This document shows positions 12,841 to 58,419 of a stretch of 64,000 nucleotides of DNA, piece after piece (position 1 is the first letter of the stretch; each line of letters begins with the position of its first letter). Where the stretch lies: positions 7,194,694 to 7,258,693 of the forward strand of contig NC_092122.1 of NCBI RefSeq assembly GCF_045679555.1. The letters run 5' to 3'. The notes beneath the pieces are model-generated. The model had not been told where the DNA came from, did not search any database, and saw only the letters and a program-made list of their open reading frames with translations. Both the position numbers and the translations under genes were made by a program. The DNA is from Salvelinus alpinus (lineage: Eukaryota; Chordata; Actinopteri; Salmoniformes; Salmonidae).

Positions 12841-13863
12841 ATGGCCAGTTGTCGGAGAGAGAGCCCGCGGAGCCGGGCAGGACAGGGAGGTGGCAGTCTG
12901 AGAGCAGCGAGGAAGCCCCGGCAGAGAGATCCATCCAGCGAGTTAGGGGACGCGGGCGAATCAATGACAGATCTACCACAATGGTTGCGGCTTTATTTCT
13001 ATGGGATGCACGGTATCACTTTGGATATCCTCCTGTCGTCGGTGCAGGGGCTTTTGGCTGACAGCGACCCCAAACTGTTCGGTTTTTCCTCCCCGTACCT
13101 CTGCATCATGCACTCGGTGACCCATTTCTTGCTGGAAAAAATATATTCGCAAAAGAAGTGCTTTCAAGGACGCACAGTAGTTTTTCACCTTGTTTTCTAT
13201 CCCTCTGTGTACATCGGGCTGCAGATCCTGATTGGGAATATAAACACGCTGACCGAGCACGTTAGAATAGTCTCTGCCACTCATCTCGTCGTTCATTACC
13301 TACTGTCCCTGTACTTCACCCAAGTATTCCACAAGGGGCTTGCGCGGCTGCGCTACCACTGCCCCGGGAAACGGACCATGTCTACCCCGGAAAAGCGCAC
13401 CCTTGAGCCGCTTCCTAATAACGGTCTGCCCGATGTTGTGCGATTCCTCTTCTTTGGAATGCACGGCTTTCTGGACGAGATCCTTTTTACCTCGATATTC
13501 AACCTTGTGGAGAAATCGGACCGGACCATGAGTGGCCACACGTCCCTGTGGTCCTTCCTGATGTACGGAAGCTGCAGCTTCGTGGTAGAGAAACTCTACC
13601 TGCATTTGCACTTCAGACGGGGCTGGAGCACCTGGAGGCGGCTCCCCATCTATATCTGCTTCATCTACACCTGGGAGTTCTGTTGGGGGCTGGCGCTGCG
13701 GCAGTACGGCGCATGCTCATGGGACTATTCCCACTATCCATTCAACTTCATGGGCCTGATCACGCTCCTCTACCTGCCCGGATGGGTCTGCATCAGTCTC
13801 TACCAGGATATTCTGTCCAGCGTTCTGCTGCGCGTGGTGGTGTGTGCCAAAGACGAGGATTGA
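12841..13863 (+). CDS. tmem229a: Transmembrane protein 229A
   Basis: A single-exon gene of 340 residues, close in size to mammalian TMEM229A. The chosen ATG sits in a strong Kozak context (ATCAACCATGG). The frame stays open upstream to 12472, but that part is compositionally unlike protein and overlaps LINE-derived sequence. After a basic N-terminus (about 1-40) come hydrophobic helices. The protein is an internal duplication: FYGMHGITLDILLSS (about 52-66) is repeated as FFGMHGFLDEILFTS (about 202-216), and each is followed by a related block ending in EK(I/L)Y. This is the CmpB/TMEM229 family of predicted multipass membrane proteins; the molecular function is unknown. Its position next to a hyaluronidase and wasl matches human 7q31. 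A poly(A) signal lies about 110 bp after the stop. Confidence 0.93.
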   Translation: MASCRRESPRSRAGQGGGSLRAARKPRQRDPSSELGDAGESMTDLPQWLRLYFYGMHGITLDILLSSVQGLLADSDPKLFGFSSPYLCIMHSVTHFLLEKIYSQKKCFQGRTVVFHLVFYPSVYIGLQILIGNINTLTEHVRIVSATHLVVHYLLSLYFTQVFHKGLARLRYHCPGKRTMSTPEKRTLEPLPNNGLPDVVRFLFFGMHGFLDEILFTSIFNLVEKSDRTMSGHTSLWSFLMYGSCSFVVEKLYLHLHFRRGWSTWRRLPIYICFIYTWEFCWGLALRQYGACSWDYSHYPFNFMGLITLLYLPGWVCISLYQDILSSVLLRVVVCAKDED

Positions 13864-18450: not shown

Positions 18451-21400
18451 TCAGTGTTTTTTCAAGTTCTCTTTAATGGTTGATTGTTCCATATCAGCTA
18501 TCACTTTATTCAGTGTCTTGGTCTTGTCAGACAGACCCTGCTGCTTCAGTCTAAACACCAGTGCTTTAGACAGGTGTATGGGCAGCTTGGGGGAACATGT
18601 CCGTCCTGCATAGCATTGACAGGTGAACCTCCTGGAGAAGAGAGTCAGGTCAGCCAGACTGGGCGTCCCCAGGACCATGTACGTGCCCCTGGCCCGGAGG
18701 ATACGGAAGTTCCCTGAGGACAGGTGGAGGTAGTGGTCCGACTCATAGTGCTTCCGGACGCAGCGCCCGTTCCCCTGGCACAGGAAGTCGCTGCAGAGCT
18801 GGGCGGCGGCTGTCACGTTGGCGACGTAGGGGTTGAGCGTGGTGGTGAGGTACGAGGAAAGAGCCTCACAGGACGCCTGTGGGAAGGGAGGGTGGAGGGA
18901 AGAAACAATACATAAAATAAAGTTATAGTGGATTCATATGTGCTGGAGTTTAAGGTAATATTCTATTCATGGTGAGAATACTTTTTTTAATGTTTTTGTA
19001 TAGTTTTGTTGCTTAAAACAATATTCTGTGTCTCAAATGGCAACTTATAAATGTCAGTGGTATTGGCTTTCAGTGTGAGTGGGCAGTATCATCTTGAGTG
19101 TGTATGTGTGTCAGAAGCCCTGTTTATACCTGGCTCTAGCATGCGTCCTTTGTCCTGATATTGTCTACATTCTGATTTTGCCCACATTTTCAGAACTATG
19201 TGAGGCTTTGGTATTAACATGTATTAACATGTGACTCAAATCCGTCCGTTGTGTCCGCATTGTGACCAAATTTCCTGGTCCCTTCTGGTTTCCTGGTCCC
19301 TCCCTATATGCGTATTTATTTATTTTAAGATACATTTTGATGCCATAAGTTAATGGTGCCACCTGTCAAATATTTTAGAAGGCAGGATAAGGATGATTGA
19401 AATGGTTTCACTGTCCAGATCCATGTACACTTGTAAGATATCCAGACACAATGCGTGCCTGACCACCTCTGGAGGTGGTGAAGAAGATCTGATCACAATG
19501 CATCTTTTGATTGTCTACATACACCTGTCTGAAAATGTGGGCACAATCAGAATGTGGACAAGATGTGGACAAATGTCACAACCAGATATAAACAGGGCTA
19601 GAGTATCACCTAACCTTGTCATCGTAGTCGGCACTGGCCCCCCACAGCACGGCTCCTGAGGCCCCCACAGCAGCACTCTCCCCGATGGTGCTGACAAGGT
19701 CCCCCTGGAGAACATCACACAGTTAACGCAGAGAAGGGTTATTATTACTGTGGTAGGGGGTATGACAGAGGTAACTGCACCTCAGTACAACATTTCTCTG
19801 ACCTCAGATCCCCACCATCACCCTGTTTCATGTGTCTGGGGGGTAGGGGCTAGCTAGAGACTCATTTAGGATTGGTCAAAAGCCTCTGTAAGAAGATATT
19901 TCTCACCTGGCTGAGGAAGCGTCTGTTCTGGTCGATGAAGACGGGTCGTGTGTACACGTAGACGGGTGCGGTGGTGGGCCGGGCGGGCAGGGCAGACACC
20001 CTCAGCGCCTCCTGGACTCGGTTCCTCACCAAGAGGGCGGCGCTATGCCTGTCCCCTAGAGACGCCTAAAAGAGGCACAACAACCCCATAGGAGTTAGTC
20101 TCCCTTACCTACAAACTAGGAAGCACTAGACTTTTAGTATAGCCTGCCAGACTACATAGGAGATGGCAAAACGAAAACACATCTGGGGGTAGATGTTAGA
20201 TTATGAATTAGTCATATCCTGCCCCGCCCCCCCAAAAAAACATTCTTACCTGCAGGTATATAGAGGGGTAGAGTGCGGAACTAGCCTCCCACAGCCAGAG
20301 TAGCTCATCGTTCTGCCCCCTCACCTCCCTGGAACATCTCCCTGTGTATCCCGGCTCCATCCATCCATGGTTATAACAGTTGGGGAACAGGTAGAATCCC
20401 CACTGGTAGTTGGGCCTGAGCCGGCTACCCAAGGACAGAGTCTCTGCCATGTAGCTGCGGGCTGCTGCCTGGAACTGCTTCTTGGCTGTAGCCGTGGCCC
20501 GCCGAGCTGTGAGTGAGCGGTCCCTCTGGCGGGCATGGGTCACTGATAGGGTCCTGTAGATCCACTTGGAGCCCCAGTTCCTGGCCCACAGGGGGCGCCA
20601 GTCCTCCCAGTCGATCACAGCCAGGCCACGGGCCATCCTGGAGGGAGGTGGAGCAGTAAAGTTATACACTTATTATGCACTGATCTAAGGTCAGTTTTGT
20701 GTCCCCAACTCTCCCATAATGGTTAAGGTTAGTGTTTGAACATGGTGTGCTAAACATCGATCTGTGCCTAAGGGCAACCTCTACATGGTTAATAATTAAG
20801 GTTAGGATTTTGGAGCTGATTCTAGATCAGTACTTGGAGGGGATGTAGTAGTTGATGTCAGCACGGGCCTTGGCCAGACTGGCCCTAAGGTTTCCTCTCT
20901 GGGGGATGCCTCCGTAGAACTGCTGCCTTGAAGGCAGGTCCACGTGGGGGTAGAGCCCCAGTCGGTCAGTATAGAACAGAGACAGGAACTGACCTGGCAC
21001 CTAGAAACAGGGAGGAAGGAAACACAGTAACGTTTTTGTTGGGAAAAAGTTATGTCTTGTACTTCTCGCAATAAATCCCCGTTAGGACATTGAAGTATAT
21101 GATTGTTTCAGGTTTGATGTGTCAAACATTGTTATGGACATCCTTCAATTTCAAACATGTTACCAGCTTTCCAAGAGGAATGTGTGTATTGTTTCTTACC
21201 TTGGCAGGTGTGGCCACGCCTCTGTAGGGGGAGGTGTCCAGGGAGATGTTGTACCTGTTACAGACCAGCTTTGGGATGTTCCAGGTCACTATGAAGGGCT
21301 CACGGTCAAATAGAGGGGGAGCAGTGTGGGGGAGAGGATGGGGGGAGGTTTTGGGCGGATGAGGAGTGAAGGTTTTGGGTAAGGGACGCGTGGTAGAGGG

Positions 21401-23011
21401 AAGAGGAGCGGTTGTTGTTTTGGGAAGAGAAGGAACAGTCGTTCTGGAGAGAGGAGGGGTGGAGGCCTGAAAGAAAGGAGGAGTGGTAGTTTTGGGACGT
21501 GGATGGGAAGTTTTGGGGAAGGGACTGGTGGTACGGGGGAGAGGACGAGGAAGAGAAGGGGAGGTTTTGAGTAAGGGAGGGTTGGTCGTTTTGGGGAGAC
21601 ACGGGCAGGAGGTTTTGAGAAGGGGAGGGGTGGTATGAGGAGGTGGAGGAGGGGAGGTTTTGGGGGGGAGTGTGATGGTGGTTGTGAACAGGGGAGGGAT
21701 GGTGGTGGAGGAAGTATAGAGGGGAGGAACGGGGGAGGACTGAGAGAGAGGAGAGGTGGTGATTTGGAGGAGAGGAGGGATGGTCGTTTTGGGGAGACGA
21801 GGCCGAGAGGTTTTTGGGCGATGAGTGGAGAAGATTTTGGGGAGACGACGGCGATATGTTTTGGTTAGGTGATGGGAGGTATCGGGAAGAGGAGGGACAA
21901 TGGTTGTGAAGGAAGTGTAGGGGACAGGAGAAGGGGAGAATTGAAAGAGAGAAGGGGTAGTGGTTTTGGGCAAAGGAGGCACGGTGATTTTGGGGAGACG
22001 AAGGTGGGATGTTTTGGGAAGACGAGTGGGGGAAATTATGGGGAGATGAGGAAAGGTAGTTTTGGGGGTTTTGGGAGAGGTTTTGGGTAGGGGAATGGTC
22101 ATATAGGGAGTAGGAGCAGGGGAGGTTATGGGAAGAAGAGGGAAGGTAGTTTTGGGGAGAAGAGGGCGAGAGGTTTTTTGGAGACAAGGGCGAGAGGTTT
22201 TGGGGAGATGAGTCAGGGAGGTTTTTGGGAGGGGACTGGCTGTGTCGGGGAGAAGAGAAGGGGATGTTTTGGGGAGATGAGGGCGGTAGGTTTCGGGGGG
22301 ATAAGTGCGGTAGGCTTTGGGGGGACGACGGCGGTAAGTTTTGTTTAGGGGAGGCAAGGTATTGAGGACAGGAGGAGGGGAGGTTTTGGGGAAAGGAGGA
22401 ACAGTTATTGTGGAGAGGGGAAGTATGGTGGTGGAGGTGGTGAAAGGGAAAGGAGCAGGAGAAGACTGAGAGACAGGAATGATGATTGTTTTCGAGAGAA
22501 GTGGACGGGGGGTTTTGAGCAGATGAGTGGGGGAGATTTTGGGGAGACGCAGGTGGGAAGTTTTGGGGAGGGGACTGGTCATATAGAGAGGAGGAGGAAG
22601 AGAAGTTTTGGGGAGACGAGGGTGGGAGGGTTTTTGGAGGAGGCGTGTAGTATGGGGGAGTCGAGGGCGAAAAGTTTTGGGTTTGGCACGGGTGGTATGA
22701 GGTAGAGTAGCGTGGGAGCTTTTGGGAAGAGGAGGAACAGTGTTTTTGGAGAGGAGTGGGATGGTGGTGTAGGGGAGAGGAGCGGGCGAGGACTGAGAGA
22801 GAGGAAGGGTTAAGGTGATGAAGGAAGTTTGATGTTGGGGCTGGGGGGATGTGGAAGTGTGGGTGAGAGGAGAGGTGGCAGTAAGTGTAAGAGAAGGGCT
22901 GGAGGTTGTTGGAGGTAGGAGGGTAGTGGAGCTGATGACACCCAGGAGAGAGAGGTTGAGGGCGGACAGCAGCAGTACAAAGCCCCTGCTCTTCTGGATG
23001 TACCAACCCAT
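18451..23011 (-). CDS. hyal4: Hyaluronidase, HYAL4/SPAM1 group, with mucin-like N-terminal region
   Basis: Glycosyl hydrolase family 56 enzyme, predicted to hydrolyse hyaluronan or chondroitin outside the cell. Six coding exons with GT-AG junctions and matching phases: 23011-21200, 21000-20834, 20637-20250, 20065-19907, 19704-19615, 18876-18451. The joined product is about 1013 residues against about 430-510 for usual family members; the excess lies in exon 1. Start: hydrophobic signal (GFVLLLSALNLSLLGVIS). The catalytic domain begins PFIVTWNIPKLVC; exon 3 carries GLAVIDWEDWRPLW with the catalytic Asp and Glu, then WGFYLFPNCYN and ALYPSIYLQ. The Tyr in that last motif is as in HYAL1 and SPAM1; human HYAL4 is reported to differ there. 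The last exon holds an EGF-like Cys-rich segment (CSDFLCQGNGRCV ... CQCYAG). No C-terminal hydrophobic GPI signal is visible, so the product is probably secreted or held by its N-terminus. HYAL4 versus SPAM1 orthology is not resolvable here; synteny with tmem229a and wasl supports the cluster. Confidence 0.9.
21200..23011 (-). CDS. hyal4: Coding exon 1 of the hyaluronidase (604 codons)
   Basis: One uninterrupted exon from the initiating ATG to the donor (GCCAAG|GTAAG, phase 0). It encodes the signal peptide (about 1-28), the mucin-like region (about 29-567) and the first 36 residues of the catalytic domain, starting DREPF, with an N-glycosylation site NIS. A splice-acceptor-like TTTCTCCTCCCCAG ends 8 bases before the ATG, so a non-coding exon probably lies upstream. 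A second frame (21306-23036) is also open throughout, but only this frame links signal peptide to enzyme. Confidence 0.85.
21311..22927 (-). repeat. Mucin-like Thr/Ser/Pro/Lys-rich coding repeat
   Basis: About 540 residues of degenerate short repeats of the type LPKTS-x-P-x-LPKT, with PLPKTS, PPLPKTT and PHTT variants. They are rich in potential O-glycosylation sites and evenly dotted with Lys. On the + strand the same DNA is extremely purine- and G-rich (GGGGAG, TTTTGGGGA), with no stop in the coding frame. Confidence 0.9.
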
Positions 23012-23124
23012 CCTTTCTCCTGGGGAGGAGAAACATTCAGCAAAGACACAGACAACAAACTGTCAATATGAAGTGTACTGCGTATAGAACATATATACTG
23101 TACAGATTTACAGATGGCTGTTTG

Positions 23125-28847: not shown

Positions 28848-30863
28848 TACAGTATAATATAATACAGTAGAGTAATACAGTCCACAAAATTAGCCTATTG
28901 GAGCTTGTTTAGTTTCTTTACCCAAGAGAGCATAGCTGCATCTATGGGCTTTTATGTCTTTCTGTCATGCATTATGTGAGGTAGCGTATAGCCTACTGTG
29001 TATCATAGGCTGTTTATTGGATAATGGCACTATCATTTGGGCTTTTTTGGGCTTGGGATCATAAAATGTCTTTTAAAGTAGGGCTAATAAAATATCTTTA
29101 ATGTATGGCACGTCAGGCTCAGTTAGCATCAGGCTTGAATCTTCATGCTGGTCAAAGCTCTAATCAAATATTTATATGCTTTAGAATGACACTTTTGATT
29201 TTGGCGGGAAATACTGGGTTACCTGGGAGAAAAGTGATCTATTCTCGGGATGGAACATTTATAAAATACCGGGAAAATATTCAACCCTAGTGTGCGTGTG
29301 TATGGGTGAGTGTATATCTGTGTGGGTGTGTGCGTGAGTGAGTGCATGTGTGCTAAGGTGCAGTTGGTCAGTCCAGTTTGAGTGTTCAGCAGTCTGATGG
29401 CCTGTAGACAGAAACTATCTCTGAGCCTTTTGGTATCAGACCTGATGATCCGTTGCCGTCTGCCCGACAGTAAGGGAGTGAACTGCTCGTGGCCGGGGTG
29501 TGTGGTGTCCTTGATGATGCTACGGGCCTTCCTCAGGCACCATTTGAGTAGATGTCCTGGAGGGTTGGGAGCACGGTCCCAGTAATGTACTGGGCTGTCT
29601 TCATCATCTGCTGGAGGGTCTTGCAGTCCTGGACGGAGCAATTCCCGTATCAGGTCATGATGCATCCGGTCAGGACGCTCTCGATGTTAAGAAGTATTTG
29701 GAGAGCAACCCAGTCGGCATGCCGAATTTCTTCAGCCGCCTTAGGAAGTAGAGACGCTGTTACTCCCTCTAGACAAGAGTGGTGGTGTTGTTGGTCCATG
29801 TCAAGTCCTCGGTGACGCAGAGGAACTTAAAACTTCGGACTCTATCTTTTGCAGTCCTGTTGATGTGGATCGGAGCATGTTCCTTTGGTTTGCTGACGTT
29901 GAGAGAGAGGTTGTCTCGGGGTCTCTGAGGTACCGGAACGCATGAGAAGAAAAGTGACAAACACAACGTAGGAGCGCAGCAGACAGAGTAAAAAAGCCAA
30001 GTAGCCTACTATCTATGGTGGTGAAATGGGCAGCGCTCTCCAAGGTGCTGATTCATTCAATTGATTTTAGACGTCACTGCGGAGCATGTACTATGAACAC
30101 ATGCTCGAGTATAGCTGTGGGGCTTACACAAGTCTGAATCTCTTACAGCCTCTTTTGAATCTCCTACACGGTTATCAAAATGTCACGCCAGAGTAAGCGT
30201 ACACAAAACACAGCCCTTATTTTAAGTGTTTCTAAAATCTCATATGTTGTTGCCGACCACAGGCCTGTAGTCTGCCTGTCAGGAAGTCCAGGATCCAGTT
30301 GCAGAGGGTTGTGTCCAGACCCAGGGTTCTGAGCTTGGAGGGCTGAATGCTGAATGCTGAATTGTAGTCAATGAACAGCATTCTCACATGGGTGTTCATC
30401 TTGTCCAAATGTGTAAGGGTCGTGTAAATAGCGATGGAAATGGCATCTTCCATGGATCTGTTGGAGCGGTAAGCAAATTGGAGTGGGTCCAGTGTGCCTG
30501 GCATGCTGGCCTTGGTGTGGCCCATGACCAGCCTCTCGAAGCACTTCCTGATTACCGGGGTGAGTGCCATGGAGCGATAGTCATTTGGGCATGTCACCTT
30601 GTTTTTCTTGGGCACTGGGACAATGTGTGTGTGTGTGTGCGTGTGTGCTTGATCACTGAGGCCAGGGTTTGCATTGTAGCTGGGTCTGTGGTGGCTCCAT
30701 CTCTTACAGCGTTCACTCTTGGGGCTGTTTTCTTTCTGTGGGAGATTGCTGTAACTCTTCTTGGTGCGTTGAGATTTTACAGAACACTCTCTGAGGAGGA
30801 CAAGTGGACGGATTGATGAGCTGCCCCTGAGCTACAAAGATGAAGAGTCAAGTATCCTGAATA

Positions 30864-32810: not shown

Positions 32811-34466
32811 CGGAGAGCAGTTGTTGTTGGGGAGCAGAGCATCAGATTTTTCCATCTTTATTTGTATTTTCTATTATGTTCCTAGGATTTTATTGCAATA
32901 AAATAACAAGGCCTAAACGGCAAATAATAGGAATAATAAATAATTATGTATTTAATTGGAATGAATTATCCATGTAATAATCAGCTACTAATACATGTTA
33001 TCTAATTCTGTCCTCCTGCCCATATTATATGGCCTATTAGTGGGGGAACGACTGTCCCCGTTCATTGAAGCCACAGAAGTTCAAGGCAGACCGAGCTACT
33101 GCAGGCATAGTTTGCAGTAAACAGGATCCCCCATTATAGTGGATAGAACATTTCTATCTTGTTGGTTAATCTTCCAGTAAGTAAAAAAAGGATTTTGAAG
33201 ACAAACATGTTACCAATAATTGCTTCTAATACACCAGATGTACGTCCTTGAACTGATTTTAAAAAATCGCACACAGAAGAAGTTATAAGGATCAACTTAA
33301 ACAGGAAGCACCCGTGGTAGGGACTATTCAATGTTGGTCTGACCAATCGAAATCTATGCTTTAAGATTATTTTGATCACGCGGACTGAAAAATATTCTGG
33401 GTCGCCTCTGAGAATAGTATCGACGTATACCCTGACTCGGTGACTGGGTACATCAGGAAGTGCATAGAAGATGTTGTGACGATTAGAATTGATCTAAACC
33501 AAAACCGTGGACAAATAGCAGCATTTGTGTAAAACTGAAAGTGTGAACTGGGAAGGTGACTGGGTACATGGACATGTACAAACAGACCAGCTATGACCTC
33601 TGTAAGGTAATCAAAGAGGCAAAACGACAGTACAGGGACAAAGTGAAGTCGCAATTCAATCGCTCAGACATAAAGTGAAGCCAGCCACGTAGCGGACTCC
33701 AATTCCTCGCTCCCGGATAAGCTAAACACCTTCTTCACCTGCTTCGAGGAAAACAACATCGAGCCACCAACGCGGGCCCCTTCCTCTCACGAGGACAGTG
33801 TGCTCTCGTTCTCCGTGTCTGACTTGAGTAAGTCATTTAAGCGTGTTAACCATTACAAGGCTGCCGGCCCAGACGGCATCCCAAGCCACGTCTTCAGAGC
33901 ATGTGCAAACCAGCTGGCTGGAGTGTTTACGGAAATATTCAATCTGTCAGTCTGTCTCCCAGTCTGTTGCCCCACTTGCTTCAAGATGTCCACAATTTCT
34001 CCAGTACCCAAGAAAGCGAAGGTAACTGAACTAAATTGCCCCATAGCCCTCACTTCTGTCATCATGAAGTGCTTTGAGAGGCTAGTTAAAGATCATGTCA
34101 CCTTACCCGACAACCTAGACCCACTACAATTCGCATACCGCCCCAACAGATCCACGGATAACGCAATCGCCAATGTACTGCACACTGCCCTATCCCACCT
34201 GGACAAGAGTAATACCTATGTAATAATGCTGTTCATCGACTACAGCTCAGCCTTCAACACCATAGTGCCCTCTGAGCTCTTCACTAAGCTCAGGGCCCTG
34301 GGTCTGAACCCCTCCCTGTGCAACTTGGTCCTGGACTTCCTGACAGGCAGCCCCCTAAAGGAGCTGATCATGGCCACGCATCTCTCCAACTCAATCAACA
34401 AGTTTGCTGACGACACAACAGCGGCAGGCCTGATTACCAACAATAACGAAACTGCCTACAGGGAGG

Positions 34467-34641
34467 ATTCAGCAGCGAGACGCCTCAATCCATATTGATA
34501 GGGCCGCAGTGGAGAGGGTCAAAATATTCAAGTTCCTCGGTGTGCACGTCACTGATGACCTGAAATGGGGGCACACTGCCTGCCCTCTACAGCACCTGGT
34601 GTCACATGAAGGCTACGAATATAACCTCAACAACCCGAGCC
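34467..34641 (+). repeat. Direct repeat, copy A (about 175 bp)
   Basis: From CAGCAGCGAGACGCCTCAAT to AACAACCCGAGCCACG. It appears identical to 34871-35045 by eye. Confidence 0.9.
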
Positions 34642-36559: not shown

Positions 36560-38154
36560 CAGTGCATTCGGAAAGTATTTAGATCCCTTCACTTTTTCCA
36601 CATTTTGTTACGTTACAGCCTTATTCTAAAATGTATTAAATAATTGTTCCTCCTCATCAATACCCCACACAATACCCCTCATCAATACTACACACAATAC
36701 CCCATAATGACAAAGTGAAAACAGGTTTTTAGAAATGTTTGCAAATGTATAAAAAACAGAAATATCTTATTTAGATAAGTATTGAGACCCTTTGCTATGA
36801 CTGTAAATTGAGCTCAGGTGTATCCTTTTTACATTGGTCATCTGTGAGATGTTTCTACATCTTGATTGGAGTCCACCTGTGGTAAATTCAATTGAATGGT
36901 CATGATTAGGATATGCACACACATGTCTATATAAGATCCCACAGTTGACAGTGCATGTCAGAGAAAAACCAAGCCATGAGGTCGAAGGTATTATCTGTCG
37001 AGCTCTGAGACATGACTATGTCAAGGCACTGAACTGGGAACCGGTACCAAAACATGTATGCAGCATTGAAGAACAGAATGGCCTCCATCATTCTTAAATG
37101 GAAGAAGTTTAGAACCACCAAAACTCTTTCTAGAGCTGGCCGCCCGGCCAAACTGAGCAATCGGGGGAGAAAGCCCTTGGTCAGGCAGGTGACCAAGAAC
37201 CCAAATGGAGTTCCAGAGTTGCTCTGTAGAGATGGGAGAACCTTCCAGAAGGACAACCATCTCTGCAGCACTCTACCAATCAGGCCTTTATGGTAGAGGG
37301 GCCAGACGGAATCCACTCCTCAGCAAGAAGCACATGAGAGCCCGCTTGGAGTTTGCCAAATGACACCTAAAGGACTCTCAGGCCATGAGAAACATTCTCT
37401 GGTCTTATGAAACCAAGATTGAACTCTTTGGCCTGAATGCCAAGCATCACGTCTGGAGGAAACCTGGCACCATCCCTACGGTGAAGCACGGTGGTGGCAG
37501 CATAATGCTGTGGGGATGTTTTTCAGCGGCAGGCACTGGGAGACTAGTCAGGATCGAGGGATAGATGAATGGAGCAAAGATATCCTTTATGAAACACTGC
37601 TCTAGAGCGCTAAGGACCACAGACTGGGGCAAAGGTTCACCTTCCAACAGGACTAAGACCCTAAGAACACAGCCAAGACAACACAGGAGTGGTTTCGGGA
37701 CGAGTCTCTGAATGTCCTTGAGTGGCCCAGCCAGAGCCCGGACTTGAACCCAATCGAACTTCTCTGGAGAGACCTGAAAATAGCTTTGCAACGATGCTCC
37801 CCATCCAACCTGACAGAGCTTGAGGGGATCTGCAGAGAAAAATGGGAGAAACTCCCCAAATACAGGTGTGCCAAGCTTGTAGCGTCATACCCAAGAAGAC
37901 TCGAGGCTGTAATCACTGCCAAAGGTTTTTAAACAAAGTACTGAGTAAACAGTTTGAATACTTATGTAAAATGTGATATTTCAGTTTTTATGTTGAATAG
38001 ATTTGCAAAAATGTCTAAAAACATGTTTTTGCTTTGTCATTATGGGGTATTGTGTGTAGATTGAGGGGGGAAATGGTTTAATCCATTGAAAATAAGGCTG
38101 TAACGTAACAAAACGTGGAAAAAGTCATGATCAGAATTCTTTCCAAATGCACTG
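36560..38154 (+). mobile_element. Full-length Tc1-like transposon, decayed transposase
   Basis: 1595 bp between TA dinucleotides (36558-36559 and 38155-38156). The ends are inverted repeats (CAGTGCATTCGGAAAGTATT versus CAGTGCATTTGGAAAGAATT), complementary for about 65 bp. The + strand carries broken transposase pieces. 37054-37296 covers the helix-turn-helix part (KWKKFRTTKTLSRAGRPAKL); AACCTGGCACCATCCC...GGTGGTGGCAGCATAATGCT around 37460-37510 encodes the GGGSIMLWG block; 37744-37932 has NPIELLWRDLK with the last catalytic Glu. Stops and frameshifts separate them, so it cannot make a transposase. Confidence 0.92.
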
Positions 38155-44557: not shown

Positions 44558-45732
44558 TACTTTTGGTCATGTAATGTATGTGGACATCTGCTCGTCGAAC
44601 ATCTCATTCCAAAATATTGAGCATTAATATGGAGTTGGTCCTCCCTTTGCTGCTATAACAGCCTCCACTCTTCTGGGAAGGCTTTCCACTAGATGTTGGA
44701 ACATTGCTGCTGGAACTTGCTTTCATTCAGCCACGAGCATTAATGAGGTCAGGCACTGATGTTGGGCGATTGGGCCTGGCTCGCAGTCAGCGTTCCAATT
44801 CATCCCAAAGGTGTTCAATGGGGTTGAGGTCAGGGCTCTGTGCAGGCCAGTCAAGTTCTTCCTCTCCGATCTCGACAAACCATTTCTGTATGGACCTCGC
44901 TTTGTGCATGAGGGCATTGTCATGCTGAAACAGGAAAGGGCCTTCCCCAAACTGTTGCCACATAGTTGGAAGCACCGAATTATCTAGAATGTCATTGTAT
45001 GCTGAAGCATTAAGATTTCCCTTCACTGGAACTAAGGGGCCTAGTCCAAGCCATGAAAAACAGCCCCAGACCATTATTGCTCCTCCACTTAACTTTACAG
45101 TTGGCACTGCATCGGGGCAGGTAGTGTTCTCCTGGCATCCGCCAAACCCAGATTTGTTTCCACTGCTCCAGAGTCCAATGCTGGCGAGCTTTACACCACT
45201 CCAGCCAATGCTTGACATTGCGCGTGGTGATCTTAAGCTTGTGTGCGGCTGCTCGGCCACGGAAACCCATTTCATGTAATTCCCGTCAAATAGTTATTGT
45301 GCTGACGTTTCTTCCAGAGGTAGTTTGGAACTCTGTAGTGAGTGTTGCAACCAATGACAGATGATGTTTATGTGCTTTAGCACCCGGTGGTCCCGTTCTG
45401 TAAACTTGTGTGTCCTACCACTTTGTGGCTGAACCCTTGTTGCTCCTAGAAGTTTCCACTTCACAATAACAGCACTTACAGTTGACCGGGCCAGCTCTAA
45501 CAGGGCAGAAATTTGACAAACTGACTTGTTGGAAAGGTGGCATACTATGACGGTGCCACGTTGAAAGTCACTGAACTCTTCAGTAAGGCCAGTCTACTGA
45601 CATTGTTTGTCTATGGAGATTGCATGGCTGTGTGCTCGTTTTATTTAGACAACTGTCAGCAACGGGTGTGGCTGAAGTAGCCGAATCCACTATTTTGAAG
45701 GGGTGTCTGCTTTTGTCTATATATATAGTGTA
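44558..45732 (-). mobile_element. Tc1-like transposon with partly intact transposase
   Basis: The ends are marked by TACTTTTGGTCATGTAATGT at the left and GTCTATATATATAGTGTA at the right. A 162-residue open piece on the - strand (44787-45275) contains [24 protein letters not shown] (second catalytic Asp) and [21 protein letters not shown] (third acidic residue, 34 residues after the second, DD34E pattern). The N-terminal DNA-binding part is frameshifted. Confidence 0.88.
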
Positions 45733-45834: not shown

Positions 45835-47990
45835 CACAGGCAAAATCCTAGAGGAAAACCTGTAAACAGTCTGCTTTTCACCAGACACTGGGACATGAAT
45901 TCACTTTCTATAGGGCAATGACCTAAAACACATTTACAAATCTACAATGGAGTTGCCTACCAAGAAGACAATGAATGTTCCTGAGTGGCCAAGTTAGTTT
46001 TGACTTAAATCTACTTGAAAATCTATGACATGCCCTCAAATGTTTGTCTAGCAATGATCATCAACCAATTTGAGCTTGAAGAATTTTGAAAATAATAATA
46101 GGCAAATGTTGCACAATCCAGGTGTGCAAAGCTTTTAGAGACTTACCCAGAAAGACTCATAGCTGTAATTGATGCCAAAGGTGCTCTACAAATGATTGAC
46201 TCAGGGGTGTGAATACTTACATTTGAAGTCAGAAGTTTACATACACCTTAGTCAAATACATTTAAAATCAGTTTTTCACAATTCCTGACATTTATTCCTA
46301 GTAAAAATTCCCTGTCTTAGGTCAGTTAGGATCACCACTTTATTTTAAGATTGCGAAATGTCAGAATATTAGTGGAGAGAATGATTTATTTCAGCTTTTA
46401 TTTCTTTCATCACATTCCCAGTGAGTCAGAAGTTTACATACACTCAATTAGTATTTGGTAGCATTGCCTTAAATTGTTTATCTTGGGTCAAACGTTTCGG
46501 GTAGCCTTCCACAAGCTTCCCACAATAAGTTGGGTGAATTTTGGCCCATTCCTCCTGACAGAGCTGGTGTAACTCAGACAGGTTTCTAGGCCTCCTTGCT
46601 CACACGCACTTTTTCAGTTATGCCAACAAATTTTCTATAAGATTGAGGTCGGGGCTTTGATGGCCACTTCAATACCTTGACTTTCTTGTCCTTAAGCCAT
46701 TTTGCCACAACTTTGGAAGTATGCTTGGGGTCATTGTCCATTTGGAAGACCCATTAGCGACCAAGCTTTTACTTCCTGACTGATGTCTTGATGTTGCTTC
46801 AATATATCCACGTAATTTTCCATCCTCATGATGCCATCTATTTTGTGAAATGCACCAGCCCCTCTTGCTGGAAAGCACCCCCACAACATGATGCTGCCAC
46901 CCCTTGCTTCGCGGTTGGGATGGTGTTCTTCGGCTTGCAAGCCTCCCCCTTTTTCCTCCAAACATAACGATGGTCATTTTGGCCAAACAGTTCTATTTTT
47001 GTTTCATCAGACCAGAGGACATTTCTCCAAAAAGTATGGTCTGTGCAGTTGCAAACCGTAGTCTGGCTTTTTTATGGTGGTTTTGGAGCAGTGGCTTCTT
47101 CCTTGGTGAGCGGCCTTTCAGGTTATGTCGATATAGGACTCGTTTTACTGTGGATATAGATACTTTTGTACCTGTTTCCTCCAGCATCTTCACAAGGTCC
47201 TTTGCTGTTGTTCTGGGATTGATTTGCACTTTTTGCACCAAAGTACGTTCATTTCTAGGAGACAGAATGCGTCTCCTTCCTGAGCGGTATGACGGCTGCG
47301 TGGTCCAATGGTGTTTATACTTGCGTACCATTGTTTGTACAGATGAACGTGGTACCTTCAGGCTTTTGGAAATTGCTCCCAAGGATGAACCAGACTTGTG
47401 GAGGTCTACCATTTTTTTGGGGGGGTCTTGGCTGATTTTCTTTTGATTTTCCCATGATGGCAAGCAAAGAGGCAGTGAGTTTGAAGGTAGGCCTTGAAAT
47501 ACATCCACATCCACTCAAATGATTTCAATTAGCCTATCAGAAGCTTCTAAAGCCATGGCATCAATTTATGGCATTTTCCAAGCTGTTTAAAAGCTCAGTC
47601 AACTTAGTGTATGTAAACTTCTGACCCACTGGACGTGTGATCCAGTGAATTATACGTGAAATAATGTGTCTGTCAACAATTGTTGGAAAAAAGACTTGTC
47701 ATAACCGACTTGCCAAAACTATGGTTTGTTAACAAGAAATTTGTGGAGTGGTTGAAAAATGAGTTTTATTGACTCCAACCTAAGTGTATGTAAACTTCTG
47801 ACTTCAACTGTATGTAAATTAGATATTTTGGGGTTTAATTTTCAATACATTTGCAAAAATGTTTAAAAACAAGTTTTCATTTTGTCATTATGGGTTATTG
47901 TGTGTAGATGGGTGAGAAATAATATATTTAATACATTTTGAATTCAGTCTAACACAATAAAATGTCGAATAAGTCAAGTCACTGTATAGG
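45835..47990 (+). mobile_element. Older Tc1-like element split by a later insertion
   Basis: The left part (45835-46219) has CCAGACACTGGGACATGAAT, GAATGTTCCTGAGTGGCCAAG and TTAGAGACTTACCCAGAAAG, i.e. the 3' half of a decayed transposase. The right part (47811-47990) resumes with TGTAAATTAGATATTTTGGG and CATTATGGGTTATTGTGTGTAG, the usual 3' end. The two join cleanly once the inner element is removed. A short LINE tail in reverse (TGTCAAATTCTATTTGTCAC, 45786-45805) lies just upstream. Confidence 0.82.
46220..47810 (-). mobile_element. Sleeping-Beauty-like Tc1 transposon, defective
   Basis: 1591 bp between TA duplicates (46218-46219, 47811-47812). The ends are TTGAAGTCAGAAGTTTACAT and its reverse ATGTAAACTTCTGACTTCAA. 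Inner direct-repeat sites, AGTCAGAAGTTTACATACAC near 46426 and TGTAAACTTCTGACCCACTG near 47611, mark the IR/DR type. On the - strand 46993-47514 encodes KMVDLHKSGSSLGAISKSL, the paired-like DNA-binding region, and RRILSPRNERTLVQKVQ. 46669-46986 encodes [11 protein letters not shown]. Frameshifts and stops split the catalytic part, so it is inactive. Confidence 0.92.
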
Positions 47991-48115: not shown

Positions 48116-48584
48116 TCAGTGGGTGGGTAGAGTCCAGTGTGTGTGTGTGTGGGTAGAGTCCAGTGTGTGTGTGTGGGTAGAGTCCTGTGTGTGTGTGTGT
48201 GGGGGTAGAGTCCTGTGTGTGTGTGTGTGGGTAGAGTCCAGTGTGTGTGTGTGTGGGTAGAGTCTAGTGTGTGTGTGTGTGGGTAGAGTCCAGTGTGTGT
48301 GTGTGTGGGTAGAGTCCAGTGTGTGTGTGTGTGGGGTAGAGTCCAGTGTGTGTGTGTGTGTGGGTAGAGTCCAGTGTGTGTGTGTGTGGTAGAGACCAGT
48401 GTGTGTGGGTAGAGTCCAGTGTGTGTGGGTAGAGTCCAGTGTGTGTGTGTGTGTGTGTGGGTAGAGTCCAGTGTGTGTGTGTGTGGGTAGAGTCCAGTGT
48501 GTGTGTGTGTGTGGGTAGAGTCCAGTGTGTGTGTGTGTGTGGGTAGAGTCCAGTGTGTGTGTGTGTGTGTGTGTGGGTAGAGTC

Positions 48585-48621
<37 letters not shown>

Positions 48622-50297
48622 GAGTCCTGTGTGTGTGTGTGTGGGTAGAGTCCAGTGTGTGTGTGTGTGTGTGTGTGGGTAGAGTCCAGTGTGTGTGTGT
48701 GTGTGTGGGTAGAGTCCAGTGTGTGTGTGTGTGTGTGTGTGGGTAGAGTCCAGTGTGTGTGTGTGTGGGTAGAGTCCAGTGTGTGTGTGTGTGGGTAGAG
48801 TCCAGTGTGTGTGTGTGTGGGGTAGAGTCCAGTGTGTGTGTGTGTGGGTAGAGTCCAGTGTGTGTGTGTGTGGGTAGAGTCCAGTGTGTGTGTGTGTGTG
48901 GGTAGAGTCCAGTGTGTGTGTGTGTGTGGGTAGAGTCCAGTGTGTGTGTGTGTGGGTAGAGTCCAGTGTGTGTGTGTGTGTGGGTAGAGTCCAGTGTGTG
49001 TGTGTGTGTGGGTAGAGTCCAGTGTGTGTGTGTGTGTGTGGGTAGAGTCCAGTGTGTGTGTGTGTGTGGGTAGAGTCCAGTGTGTGTGTGGGTAGAGTCC
49101 AGTGTGTGTGTGTGTGGGTAGAGTCCAGTGTGTGTGTGTGTGTGGGTAGAGTCCAGTGTGTGTGTGTGTGTGGGTAGAGTCCAGTGTGTGTGTGTGTGTG
49201 GGTAGAGTCCAGTGTGTGTGGGTAGAGTCCAGTGTGTGTGGGTAGAGTCCAGTGTGTGTGTGGGTAGAGTCCAGTGTGTGTGTGGGTAGAGTCCAGTGTG
49301 TGTGTGTGTGGGTAGAGTCCAGTGTGTGTGTGTGTGTGGGTAGAGTCCAGTGTGTGTGTGTGTGTGGGTAGAGTCCAGTGTGTGTGTGTGTGTGGGTAGA
49401 GTCCAGTGTGTGTGGGTAGAGTCCAGTGTGTGTGGGTAGAGTCCAGTGTGTGTGTGTGTGTGGGTAGAGTCCAGTGTGTGTGTGTGTGTGTGGGTAGAGT
49501 CCAGTGTGTGTGTGTGTGTGGGTAGAGTCCAGTGTGTGTGTGTGTGTGGGTAGAGTCCAGTGTGTGTGGGTAGAGTCCAGTGTGTGTGTGTGTGTGGGTA
49601 GAGTCCAGTGTGTGTGTGTGTGTGGGTAGAGTCCTGTGTGTGTGGGTAGAGTCCTGTGTGTGTGTGTGTGTGGGTAGAGTCCAGTGTGTGTGTGTGTGTG
49701 TGGGTAGAGTCCAGTGTGTGTGTGTGTGTGTGTGGGTAGAGTCCAGTGTGTGTGTGTGTGTGTGTGGGTAGAGTCCAGTGTGTGTGTGTGTGTGTGTGTG
49801 TGGGTAGAGTCCAGTGTGTGTGTGGGTAGAGTCCAGTGTGTGTGTGTGTGTGGGTAGAGTCCAGTGTGTGTGTGTGTGTGTGGGTAGAGTCCAGTGTGTG
49901 TGTGTGGGTAGAGTCCAGTGTGTGTGTGTGGGTAGAGTCCAGTGTGTGTGTGTGGGTAGAGTCCAGTGTGTGTGTGTGTGGGTAGAGTCCAGTGTGTGTG
50001 TGTGTGGGTAGAGTCCAGTGTGTGTGTGTGGGTGGGTAGAGTCCAGTGTGTGTGTGTGTGTGGGTAGAGTCCAGTGTGTGTGTGGGTAGAGTCCAGTGTG
50101 TGTGTGTGTGTGGGTAGAGTCCAGTCTGTGTGTGGGTGTGTGGGTAGAGTCCTGTGTGTGTGGGTAGAGTCCTGTGTGTGTGTGTGTGTGGGTAGAGTCC
50201 AGTGTGTGTGTGTGTGTGTGGGTAGAGTCCAGTGTGTGTGTGTGTGTGTGTGTGGGTAGAGTCCAGTGTGTGTGTGTGTGTGTGTGGGTAGAGTCCA

Positions 50298-50328
<31 letters not shown>

Positions 50329-50603
50329 GAGTCCAGTGTGTGTGTGTGTGTGTGGGTAGAGTCCAGTGTGTGTGTGTGTGTGGGTAGAGTCCAGTGTGTG
50401 TGTGTGTGTGTGGGTAGAGTCCAGTGTGTGTGTGTGGGTAGAGTCCAGTGTGTGTGTGTGGGTAGAGTCCAGTGTGTGTGTGTGGGTAGAGTCCAGTGTG
50501 TGTGTGTGTGGGTAGAGTCCAGTGTGTGTGTGTGTGGGTAGAGTCCAGTGTGTGTGTGTGGGTAGAGTCCAGTGTGTGTGTGTGTGTGTGTGGGTAGAGT
50601 CCA

Positions 50604-50634
<31 letters not shown>

Positions 50635-51829
50635 GAGTCCAGTGTGTGTGTGTGTGTGTGTGTGGGTAGAGTCCAGTGTGTGTGTGTGTGTGTGTGTGGG
50701 TAGAGTCCAGTGTGTGTGTGTGTGGGTAGAGTCCAGTGTGTGTGTGTGTGGGTAGAGTCCAGTGTGTGTGTGTGGGTAGAGTCCAGTGTGTGTGTGGGGT
50801 AGAGTCCAGTGTGTGTGTGTGTGTGTGGGTAGAGTCCAGTGTGTGTGGGTAGAGTCCAGTGTGTGTGTGTGGGTAGAGTCCAGCGTGTGTGGGTAGAGTC
50901 CAGTGTGTGTGTGTGTGTGTGGGTAGAGTCCAGTGTGTGTGTGGGTAGAGTCCAGTGTGTGTGTGTGGGTAGAGTCCAGTGTGTGTGTGTGGGTAGAGTC
51001 CAGTGTGTGTGTGTGTGTGTGGGTAGAGTCCAGTGTGTGTGTGTGTGGGTAGAGTCCAGTGTGTGTGTGTGTGTGTGGGTAGAGTCCAGTGTGTGTGTGT
51101 GTGGGTAGAGTCCAGTGTGTGTGTGTGTGTGTGTGGGTAGAGTCCAGTGTGTGTGTGCGTGTGGGTAGAGTCCAGTGTGTGTGTGTGTGGGTAGAGTCCA
51201 GTGTGTGTGTGTGTGGGTAGAGTCCAGTGTGTGTGTGTGTGTGTGTGGGTAGAGTCCAGTGTGTGTGTGTGTGTGTGTGTGTGGGTAGAGTCCAGTGTGT
51301 GTGTGTGTGTGTGTGTGGGTAGAGTCCAGTGTGTGTGTGTGTGTGTGTGGGTAGAGTCCAGTGTGTGTGTGTGTGGGTAGAGTCCAGTGTGTGTGTGTGT
51401 GGGTAGAGTCCAGTGTGTGTGTGTGTGGGTAGAGTCCAGTGTGTGTGTGTGTGGGTAGAGTCCAGTGTGTGTGTGTGTGTGTGGGTAGAGTCCAGTGTGT
51501 GTGGGTAGAGTCCAGTGTGTGTGTGTGGGTAGAGTCCAGCGTGTGTGTGGTAGAGTCCAGTGTGTGTGTGTGTGTGTGGGTAGAGTCCAGTGTGTGTGTG
51601 GGTAGAGTCCAGTGTGTGTGTGTGGGTAGAGTCCAGTGTGTGTGTGTGTGGGTAGAGTCCAGTGTGTGTGTGTGTGTGTGGGTAGAGTCCAGTGTGTGTG
51701 TGTGTGTGGGTAGAGTCCAGTGTGTGTGTGTGTGTGTGGGTAGAGTCCAGTGTGTGTGTGTGTGGGTAGAGTCCAGTGTGTGTGTGTGTGTGTGTGGGTA
51801 GAGTCCAGTGTGTGTCTGTGGGTAGAGTC

Positions 51830-51864
<35 letters not shown>

Positions 51865-54307
51865 GAGTCCAGTGTGTGTGTGTGGGTAGAGTCCAGTGTG
51901 TGTGTGTGTGTGTGGGTAGAGTCCAGTGTGTGTGTGTGTGGGTAGAGTCCAGTGTGTGTGTGTGTGGGTAGAGTCCAGTGTGTGTGTGTGTGTGTGGGTA
52001 GAGTCCAGTGTGTGTGTGTGTGTGTGTGGGTAGAGTCCAGTGTGTGTGTGTGTGTGTGGGTAGAGTCCAGTGTGTGTGTGGGTAGAGTCCAGTGTGTGTG
52101 TGTGTGTGGGGGTAGAGTCCAGTGTGTGTGTGTGTGTGTGTGGGTAGAGTCCAGTGTGTGTGGTGTGTGTGTGTGTGGGTAGAGTCCAGTGTGTGTGTGG
52201 GTAGAGTCCAGTGTGTGTGTGTGTGTGTGGGTAGAGTCCAGTGTGGGTAGAGTCCAGTGTGTGTGTGGGTAGAGTCCAGTGTGTGTGTGGGTAGAGTCCA
52301 GTGTGTGTGTGGGTAGAGTCCAGTGTGTGGGTAGAGTCCAGTGTGTGTGTGTGTGTGGGTAGAGTCCAGTGTGTGTGTGTGTGTGGGTAGAGTCCAGTGT
52401 GTGTGTGTGTGTGGGTAGAGTCCAGTGTGTGTGTGTGTGTGGGTAGAGTCCAGTGTGTGTGTGTGTGTGGGTAGAGTCCAGTGTGTGTGTGTGTGGTGGG
52501 TAGAGTCCAGTGTGTGTGTGTGTGTGTGGGTAGAGTCCAGTGTGTGTGTGTGTGTGTGGGTAGAGTCCAGTGTGTGTGGGTGGTGTGGGTAGAGTCCAGT
52601 GTGTGTGTGTGTGTGTGGGTAGAGTCCAGTGTGTGTGTGTGTGTGTGGGTAGAGTCCAGTGTGTGTGTGTGTGTGGGTAGAGTCCAGTGTGTGTGTGTGT
52701 GTGTGGGTAGAGTCCAGTGTGTGTGTGTGTGTGTGGGTAGAGTCCAGTGTGTGTGTGTGTGTGGGTAGAGTCCAGTGTGTGTGTGTGTGTGGGTAGAGTC
52801 CAGTGTGTGTGTGTGTGGGTAGAGTCCAGTGTGTGTGTGTGTGTGGGTAGAGTCCAGTGTGTGTGTGTGTGTGGGTAGAGTCCAGTGTGTGTGTGTGTGT
52901 GGGTAGAGTCCAGTGTGTGTGTGTGTGTGGGTAGAGTCCAGTGTGTGTGTGTGTGTGGGTAGAGTCCAGTGTGTGTCGTGGGTAGAGTCCAGTGTGTGTG
53001 TGTGTGGGTAGAGTCCAGTGTGTGTGGGTAGAGTCCAGTGTGTGTGTGTGTGTGTGTGTGTGGGTAGAGTCCAGTGTGTGTGTGTGTGGTGTGGGTAGAG
53101 TCCAGTGTGTGTGTGTGGGTAGAGTCCAGTGTGTGTGTGTGTGGGTAGAGTCCAGTGTGTGTGTGTGTGGGTAGAGTCCAGTGTGTGTGTGTGTGTGTGG
53201 GTAGAGTCCAGTGTGTGTGTGTGTGTGTGTGGGTAGAGTCCAGTGTGTGTGTGTGTGTGTGGGTAGAGTCCAGTGTGTGTGTGTGGGTAGAGTCCAGTGT
53301 GTGTGTGTGTGTGTAGAGTCCAGTGTGTGTGTGTGTGTGTGGGTAGAGTCCAGTGTGTGTGTGTGTGTGGGTAGAGTCCATGTGTGGGTAGAGTCCAGTG
53401 TGTGTGTGTGGGTAGAGTCCAGTGTGTGTGTGTGTGGTGGGTAGAGTCCAGTGTGTGTGTGTGTGTGGGTAGAGTCCAGTGTGTGTGTGTGTGTGTGGGT
53501 AGAGTCCAGTGTGTGTGGGTAGAGTCCAGTGTGTGTGGGTAGAGTCCAGTGTGTGTGGGTAGAGTCCAGTGTGTGTGTGTGTGTGTGGGTAGAGTCCAGT
53601 GTGTGTGTGTGTGTGGGGTAGAGTCCAGTGTGTGTGTGTGTGTGTGGGTAGAGTCCAGTGTGTGTGGGTAGAGTCCAGTGTGTGTGGGTAGAGTCCTAGT
53701 GTGTGTGTGTGTGTGTGTGGGTAGAGTCCAGTGTGTGTGTGTGTGGGTAGAGTCCAGTGTGTGTGGGTAGAGTCCAGTGTGTGTGTGTGTGGGTAGAGTC
53801 CAGTGTGTGTGTGGGTAGAGTCCAGTGTGTGTGTGTGTAGTGTGTGTGGGTAGAGTCCAGTGTGTGTGTGTGGGTAGAGTCCAGTGTGTGTGTGTGGGTA
53901 GAGTCCAGTGTGTGTGTGTGGGTAGAGTCCAGTGTGTGTGTGTGGGTAGAGTCCAGTGTGTGTGTGTGGGTAGAGTCCAGTGTGTGTGTGTGTGTGTGGG
54001 TAGAGTCCAGTGTGTGTGTGTGTGTGTGGGTAGAGTCCAGTGTGTGTGTGTGTGTGTGGGTAGAGTCCAGTGTGTGTGTGTGTAGAGTCCAGTGTGTGTG
54101 TGGGTAGAGTCCAGTGTGTGTGTGTGTGTGTGGGTAGAGTCCCGTGTGTGTGTGTGTGTGTGTGGGTAGAGTCCAGTGTGTGTGTGTGTGTGGGTAGAGT
54201 CCAGTGTGTGTGTGTGTGTGTGGGTAGAGTCCAGTGTGTGTGGGTAGAGTCCAGTGTGTGTGGGTAGAGTCCAGTGTGTGTGGGTGTGTGTGTGTGTGGG
54301 TAGAGTC

Positions 54308-54367
<60 letters not shown>

Positions 54368-55561
54368 AGTGTGTGTGTGTGTGTGTGTGTGTGTCCAGTG
54401 TGTGTGGGTAGAGTCCAGTGTGTGTGGGTAGAGTCCAGTGTGTGTGGGTAGAGTCCAGTGTGTGTGTGTGTGTGTGGGTAGAGTCCAGTGTGTGTGTGTG
54501 TGTGTGGGTAGAGTCCAGTGTGTGTGTGTGTGTGGGTAGAGTCCAGTGTGTGTGTGTGTGGGTAGAGTCCAGTGTGTGTGTGTGTGGGTAGAGTCCAGTG
54601 TGTGTGTGTGTGGGTAGAGTCCAGTGTGTGTGTGTGTGTGGGTAGAGTCCAGTGTGTGTGTGTGTGTGGGTAGAGTCCAGTGTGTGTGTGTGTGTGTGGG
54701 TAGAGTCCAGTGTGTGTGTGTGTGTGGGTAGAGTCCAGTGTGTGTGTGTGTGTGTGGGTAGAGTCCAGTGTGTGTGGGTAGAGTCCAGTGTGTGTGTAGA
54801 GTCCAGTGTGTGTGTGTGGGTAGAGTCCAGTGTGTGTGTGTGTGGGTAGAGTCCAGTGTGTGTGTGTGTGGGTAGAGTCCAGTGTGTGTGTGTGTGGGTA
54901 GAGTCCAGTGTGTGTGTGTGTGTGTGGGTAGAGTCCAGTGTGTGTGTGTGTGTGGGTAGAGTCCAGTGTGTGTGTGTGGGTAGAGTCCAGTGTGTGTGTG
55001 TGGGTAGAGTCCAGTGTGTGTGTGTGGGTAGAGTCCAGTGTGTGTGTGTGTGGGTAGAGTCCAGTGTGTGTGTGTGTGTGTGGGTAGAGTCCAGTGTGTG
55101 TGTGTGGTGTGTGTGTGGGTAGAGTCCAGTGTGTGTGTGTGTGTGTGGGTAGAGTCCAGTGTGTGTGTGTGTGTGTGGGTAGAGTCCAGTGTGTGTGTGT
55201 GTGGGTAGAGTCCAGTGTGTGTGTGTGTGTGGGTAGAGTCCAGTGTGTGTGTGTGTGTGGGTAGAGTCCAGTGTGTGTGTGTGTGTGGGTAGAGTCCAGT
55301 GTGTGTGTGTGTGTGGGTAGAGTCCAGTGTGTGTGTGTGTGGGTAGAGTCCAGTGTGTGTGTGTGTGTGTGGGTAGAGTCCAGTGTGTGTGTGTGTGTGT
55401 GGGTAGAGTCCAGTGTGTGTGTGTGTGTGGGTAGAGTCCATGTGTGTGTGTGTGTGTGGGTAGAGTCCAGTGTGTGTGTGTGTGTGTGGGTAGAGTCCAG
55501 TGTGTGTGTGTGTGTGTGTGGGTAGAGTCCAGTGTGTGTGTGTGTGTGTGGGTAGAGTCCA

Positions 55562-55592
<31 letters not shown>

Positions 55593-58357: not shown

Positions 58358-58394
<37 letters not shown>

Positions 58395-58419
58395 GAGTCC
58401 AGTGTGTGTGTGTGTGTGT
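48116..58419 (+). repeat. 10.3-kb compound array: (TG)n plus GGGTAGAGTCCA
   Basis: Several hundred units of GGGTAGAGTCCAG joined to a TG tract of about 6 to 55 bases, nearly all in the same orientation. The 12-13-bp core is very conserved (rare TAGAGTCCTG, TAGAGTCCCG, GTAGAGACCA and GGGGTAGAG variants), while the TG length changes from unit to unit. The - strand is free of stops across 8.5 kb in one frame because all three frames of CTGGACTCTACCC(AC)n are open; this is composition, not a gene. Confidence 0.97.

Follow-up and report, generated by a model that had tools for sequence, protein, structure and literature searches.

A 64,000-nucleotide stretch of Salvelinus alpinus DNA (contig NC_092122.1, positions 7,194,694 to 7,258,693 of assembly GCF_045679555.1; hereafter the window) carries on its minus strand a gene of glycoside hydrolase family 56 (GH56) whose first coding exon encodes, in a single frame, a signal peptide, a 536-residue proline-rich, cationic, mucin-like repeat array, and the start of the catalytic domain. 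The gene is a new domain variant within a known enzyme family; a hyaluronidase with such a domain was not found among the titles and abstract openings covered by a literature search. The original prediction of a repeat at 21311-22927, set in one frame between a signal peptide and a GH56 start in an exon that ends in a proper donor, was borne out, and the interpretation given to it was borne out in part: the repeat is the array part (21320..22927) of a minus-strand first coding exon, the coding sequence runs for 1013 residues without a stop, and the exon donor scores 10.85 bits. On balance, we think it rather probable that the gene encodes a working enzyme of the SPAM1/HYAL4 side of the family, whose linker grew within the exon to about 530 residues and which would be secreted with a cationic stalk.

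The gene model consists of six coding exons, all on the minus strand (coding sequence of 3042 nt, no internal stops). Exon 1 (21200..23019) follows a pyrimidine-rich acceptor, CTCCTCCCCAG, located before 23019; its ATG is at 23011, and it ends in the donor AAG/GTAAGAAA from 21199. With a self-written donor weight matrix, any other GT in the exon scores at most 4.27 bits. Residues 1-28 (22928..23011) form a putative signal peptide, as judged by hydropathy (Kyte-Doolittle value of 2.39 for residues 12-26) and by alignment with the closest paralogue, C9c (L014), which served as outgroup. The array (residues 29-564) is followed by the catalytic start (21200..21319). Exon 2 (20834..21000) ends in the weak donor CAA/GTACTG, and the length across this junction equals that in C9c; retention of the intron would lead to an early stop. 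Exon 3 (20250..20637) contains the catalytic VIDWEDW segment and is followed by exons 4 (19907..20065), 5 (19615..19704), and 6 (18451..18876, including the stop).

A Pfam scan of the window protein at E values up to 1 gave nothing besides PF01630 (Glyco_hydro_56), which matched residues 566-897 over profile positions 1-335 of 335 with 419.8 bits (E 8.9e-126), above the curated cut-off. The best solved relatives were human PH-20 (9jub, 402.9 bits) and then HYAL1 (2pe4, 320.6 bits), out of only four distinct matched sequences, HYAL2-4 not being among them. The segments VIDWEDW, GFYLFPNCYNH, ALYPSIYLQ, and VRNRVQEA, whose residues we assume to have the active-site roles usual in GH56 enzymes, align with both structures. 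The Asp of the FPDCYN motif is Asn in the window protein and Glu or Ser in two paralogues (L006 and L007). On sequence grounds, the window gene belongs with the SPAM1/HYAL4 side of GH56 and is nearer to PH-20 than to HYAL1. Mammalian sperm hyaluronidases are reported to be anchored by glycosylphosphatidylinositol (GPI; PMC9141766). In the window protein, the C terminus is charged, with a best 15-residue hydropathy of 0.76 from residue 951 on, and because it has no hydrophobic tail, GPI anchoring appears unlikely. HYAL4 is reported to cleave chondroitin sulfate and not hyaluronan (PMC9501593); hence the substrate of the fish enzyme could be either of the two.

The array is made up largely of Pro (24.3%), Thr (19.4%), Leu (13.2%), Ser (11.0%), Lys (6.9%), and Arg (5.0%), with just three acidic residues (Asp plus Glu) among the 536. 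Its calculated charge at pH 7 is about +62 and its isoelectric point 11.8. An 8-residue unit, approximately K-T-S/T-x-P-x-L-P, can be recognized. As to the regular spacing of Lys that had been predicted, 17 of the 36 Lys-Lys gaps measure 8 residues, which matches the 24-base period detected by Tandem Repeats Finder in several parts of the array. At the DNA level, 29 of 31 AAAAC and 26 of 30 CCAAAA anchors fall in one phase, and we attribute the remainder to chance or to overlapping matches. When 78 windows of 60 nt were sampled from the array, none matched another part of it above 0.80. The number of Ser plus Thr per 100 residues varies between 23 and 35, and 113 of the 163 Ser/Thr residues have a Pro at position -1 to +3. 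Three Cys (residues 276, 469, and 471) lie inside the array, which would be unexpected for a plain stalk.

The best evidence that the array is translated comes from its self-similarity. Offsets at which the array resembles itself (at least 70% identity over 48 nt) were multiples of 3 in 93 cases out of 93; as they share ancestry, these offsets are not independent. Only 9 of the 93 were multiples of 24, and residues modulo 24 filled all eight multiples of 3. The distribution over classes 0/1/2 was 242/10/8 at an identity of 0.60, 145/0/1 at 0.65, and 93/0/0 at 0.70 (thresholds from 0.60 to 0.80 were used for the array). When the array was used as a DNA query, 32 matches were returned, of which the strong ones were the window copy itself (C37) and its ohnologue, C11. 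Four of the weak matches, CT-rich minisatellites judged non-coding by appearance (L019-L022), served as controls; in 800 nt of each, the three classes received similar numbers of offsets, first at 0.85 identity and again when the test was repeated at 0.70-0.90. As the frame is kept in all 93 offsets, unlike in the controls, a non-coding array is hardly credible. The array looks genuinely translated, as far as its sequence can tell.

Openness as such is weak proof of coding, since the array has no stop in sense frame +2 either and two of the four minisatellites have frames as long. In L019, open frames reach 577, 526, and 490 residues and in L021, 725, 433, and 425, while in the 800 nt analyzed every one of the three frames is interrupted, by 2-5 stops in L020 and by 5-9 in L022. 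Dinucleotide shuffles of the array contained on average 7.6 stops per frame; 2 of 2000 had any open sense frame and none had the coding frame open. The second, overlapping open frame (576 codons, 21306-23036, minus strand) extends through all of the array and ends where the catalytic domain starts. Dual coding of this frame was considered (19.4 stops expected, 0 of 5000 synonymous-codon shuffles stop-free), but the signal was rejected because common descent has left the unit columns almost invariant, so that codons cannot be exchanged between columns; one T-dominated unit column contains 32 T and no C.

To place the array within the family, the 2.37 Gb genome was searched with PF01630, which yielded 33 exon-level matches. 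N termini were read at 13 loci besides the window gene and C11, two fragments (C6:15565908, broken, and C12:10877868) being left out. An array at the linker position was present in none of these 13 loci, in agreement with the prediction that family members have almost nothing between signal peptide and catalytic domain. In 12 of them the catalytic match is preceded by an in-frame Met at a distance of 31 to 48 residues; L008 has, in addition to its near Met, a longer open frame upstream, and in the 13th locus, L007, that exon is without an in-frame Met. A further GH56 pair with divergent catalytic domains was seen in L010 (C28) and L011 (C17); L010 has LRWGQW where others have IDWE, and the L011 copy contains stops.

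C9c is the sister of the window gene in our tree (support 100/99) and is 63% identical to it over 278 columns of the catalytic exon. The signal peptides of the two align without gaps over 35 residues with a score of 53, equaled in none of 1000 shuffles, and in both genes an acceptor-like site closely precedes the ATG, by a few bases. The C9c linker reads PLPTTE and then PPLFD; in C37 the array lies between LPPTT and PPLFD, in the same exon. The homologous signal peptide and linker edges indicate that the array arose by expansion within the exon. The suggestion that the domain could be lineage-specific is answered in part: the repeat is absent from the closest paralogue, and it predates the split between C37 and C11. 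The broken C6 fragment 15565908 was considered as a sister of C9c and rejected, as it resembles C9a instead. For the catalytic part (window 19907-21319), the branch of the window gene has roughly three times the length of the C9c branch (0.55 versus 0.18).

C37 and C11 form an ohnologue pair which, judging by its divergence, probably dates from the salmonid genome duplication. TMEM229A-like genes flank both copies and are 94% identical; the one in the window lies at 12964..13860 on the plus strand. Introns of the two GH56 copies are 0.92-0.95 identical, and exon 1, as far as it is left in C11, 0.91. The C11 gene is dead: no alignment is possible for its start and signal-peptide part, the AG of the exon 2 acceptor is lost, two in-frame stops are present, exon 3 lacks 15 bases, and frame-breaking losses occur both in the array and in exon 6. 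In the offset test described above, the C11 array gave 8 offsets in class 0 and 15 in class 2. A relative with a broken frame in the repeat, named in advance as contrary evidence, thus exists in C11, but with the whole gene dead it does not refute the prediction. The C11 array is shorter than that of C37 and has no sequence absent from it, except 7 bases at the aligned edge; the missing rest was probably lost by C11. Because the copies are 0.91 alike and windows within the array at most 0.80, the units predate the split.

For the main catalytic part (269 codons), changes since the split were assigned to branches by using C9c as the outgroup and counting single-change codons only (11 codons were ambiguous and 5 had multiple changes). 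C37 acquired 3 nonsynonymous and 7 synonymous changes, compared with 15 and 4, plus 2 stops, in C11 (Fisher p 0.017). Small as these numbers are, the window gene looks to have been kept working. The ratio of nonsynonymous to synonymous rates (dN/dS) between C37 and C11, calculated with our own Nei-Gojobori script, was 0.32 for the catalytic domain. Introns at 21001-21199, 20638-20833, and 20066-20249 (minus strand) split this domain, a part that all 11 intact paralogues encode in a single uninterrupted exon; the same three are present in C11, and they are probably gains made in this lineage before the C37/C11 split. Novel introns are reported in other fish genes as well (PMC3151243). An introner-like origin of introns 1-3 was rejected, as only short, chance-level matches were found among them.

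We propose the following course of events. An ancestral short linker after the signal peptide, of the kind seen as PLPTTE in C9c, would have expanded within the exon to about 530 residues through successive in-frame duplications of a 24-base unit. The enzyme would be secreted carrying an extended, disordered, strongly cationic proline-rich stalk, probably O-glycosylated. The stalk may space the catalytic domain and hold the enzyme on a polyanionic matrix such as hyaluronan, chondroitin sulfate, or sulfated mucus; the basic character of the array, with almost no acidic residues, suggests such retention. The exact residues seem free to drift, with function carried by length, frame, and composition.

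Several results weigh against this proposal. A passive spacer would likewise keep the frame. Ser plus Thr in the array stays below the cut-off used for mucin domains. The dN/dS of the array between C37 and C11 is 1.14 (256 codons), and neither Ser/Thr (8 losses observed, 10.2 expected) nor Pro (10 observed, 8.2 expected) was retained in excess; the latter test used 239 shared codons, 58 of them with a single change, after codons in C11 gaps and those 5' of 22772 were dropped. Comparisons of units within the array did not single out the coding frame, either by mismatch at codon positions 1, 2, and 3 (0.267, 0.330, and 0.318) or by the nonsynonymous-to-synonymous ratio relative to expectation (2.04/2.55 in the coding frame, 1.91/2.59 in frame +2, and 2.60/2.56 in frame +1). 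Finally, the intron 2 donor (window 20833) scores 0.71 bits, versus 7.3-11.0 for the other four, and is identical in C11. By sequence, then, the array is free to drift, and the frame alone is demonstrably kept.

Some of these observations lend weight to the view, which we nevertheless hold to be the less probable one, that the array is translated yet idle. In this view a minisatellite expanded neutrally and in frame within a linker that tolerates it, and its frame is kept only since a shift would wreck the enzyme downstream. It would account for an array dN/dS well above that of the catalytic domain, for the lack of excess retention of Ser/Thr and Pro, and for an identity of exon 1 between the copies similar to that of the introns. 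It fits less well with the apparent age of the units, which implies that the living copy retained a long array, and with the C11 array, which apart from its few edge bases contributes nothing that C37 lacks. Moreover, mucin domains drift too, their proline/threonine/serine (PTS) domains being reported as poorly conserved among species (PMC5728529). A more specific form of our proposal is tentative and, in our estimate, doubtful: an O-glycosylated polyproline stalk with a charge of about +62 over 536 residues would tether the enzyme either to the polyanionic substrate that it cleaves or to sulfated mucus, a lubricin-style brush and a glycosaminoglycan hydrolase thus being united in one polypeptide. 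The stalk would have arisen in a SPAM1-like fish gene from a linker of about 6 residues before the C37/C11 split and have been kept intact in the survivor only.

We consider it quite unlikely that the main transcript lacks the array, either through a cryptic intron in exon 1 or through another first exon joined at 21468 or 21445. Acceptor-like sites do occur near the end of this long pyrimidine-rich stretch (21468, TTTCTTTCAG; 21445, TCTCTCCAG) and would permit an alternative first exon farther upstream, and the window gene has gained introns elsewhere. Donors, however, are weak: the best GT scores at most -0.92 bits in the array and 2.15 in the signal-peptide region, compared with 10.85 for the real donor. 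Among the ten best in-frame splice pairs skipping at least 1000 nt, donors do not exceed 2.15 bits; any of these pairs whose acceptor is pyrimidine-rich would also remove the signal peptide wholly or in part. An ATG start just after the array is impossible in exon 1, as there is no Met between residues 304 and 661, and the frame kept in every offset hardly fits an array that is non-coding. Very improbable, in our judgment, is an open frame that is an accident of CT-rich DNA in a decaying gene. Long open frames in two of the four minisatellites, the open frame +2, the dead ohnologue, the long catalytic branch of C37, and the weak intron 2 donor could all be cited for it; they are opposed by 1013 codons free of lesions, by the 3:7 ratio of nonsynonymous to synonymous changes in C37 versus 15:4 in C11, and by modulo-3 frame keeping that none of the four controls displays.

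A TMEM229A-like neighbor is present at both C37 and C11; in the human gene order, TMEM229A flanks SPAM1. At the GH56 cluster on C6, POT1 matches lie about 55-120 kb away, and no POT1 match was found at C37. The C6 cluster looks like the tilapia locus, whose reported order is wasla-hyal6-hyal4-spam1-gpr37a-pot1 (PMC8488396), and human genes of the SPAM1/HYAL4 group are reported to be clustered on 7q31.3 (PMC11275217). Elsewhere in the window, about 380 copies of a 26-28 base unit make up a minisatellite of 10 kb (48119-58419). Frames read by eye at 37447-37932, 44787-45293, and 46669-47514 resemble what we take to be remnants of Tc1/mariner transposases, and those at 30232-30831 and 33674-34498 presumably represent reverse-transcriptase-like fragments.

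If our reading is correct, the window gene encodes a GH56 enzyme of unusual architecture, in which a repeat has expanded where the paralogues examined have few residues, and the dead sister copy C11 dates and polarizes the change. It would offer a clean test case for the effect of a long, disordered, cationic stalk on a matrix-cutting enzyme, as well as an example of how a CT-rich repeat that is translated can be told apart from a minisatellite whose frames simply happen to be open. The protein resembles vertebrate SPAM1/PH-20 and HYAL4 in its full-length PF01630 match, the VIDWE motif, PH-20 as best solved relative, and perhaps the TMEM229A-like neighbor of its gene; it differs by some 530 additional N-terminal residues and by the lack of a GPI-type hydrophobic tail. 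With C9c it shares 63% identity in the catalytic exon and a homologous signal peptide and linker edges, whereas its linker is about 535 residues instead of about 6 and the same catalytic part, a single exon in C9c, is split. The three introns set it apart from all 11 intact relatives in the genome.

The array was also compared, by features and not by homology, with lubricin (PRG4). The lubricin repeat is flanked by somatomedin B and hemopexin domains, neither of which was found in the window protein by Pfam at E values up to 1. The KEPAPTTP repeat of lubricin is reported to be O-glycosylated and of polyproline-II character, with one Lys per 8-residue unit (PMC12262190). Both arrays thus have a Pro/Thr-rich 8-residue unit with one Lys each; unlike lubricin, the window array is nearly devoid of acidic residues, strongly cationic, Leu-rich, and joined to a glycosaminoglycan hydrolase. 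A rule reported for salmon mucins defines PTS domains by more than 40% Ser/Thr and at least 5% Pro per 100 residues (PMC5728529), and with a maximum of 35 Ser plus Thr the array fails it. The predicted mucin-like character is to be taken with care: the Ser plus Thr content of the repeat is too low for the rule, and its positive charge is high. KEPAPTTP, with 2 Ser/Thr out of 8, would fail as well, though the lubricin domain is reported to be heavily glycosylated (PMC12262190); hence the window array may still carry O-glycans. MUC7 is reported to carry sub-exonic PTS repeats that are highly divergent, densely O-glycosylated, and variable in copy number (PMC4997351). The window array is similar in having its repeats within one coding exon and in their high divergence, and it differs from MUC7 in that its units, at most 0.80 alike over 60 nt, look old.

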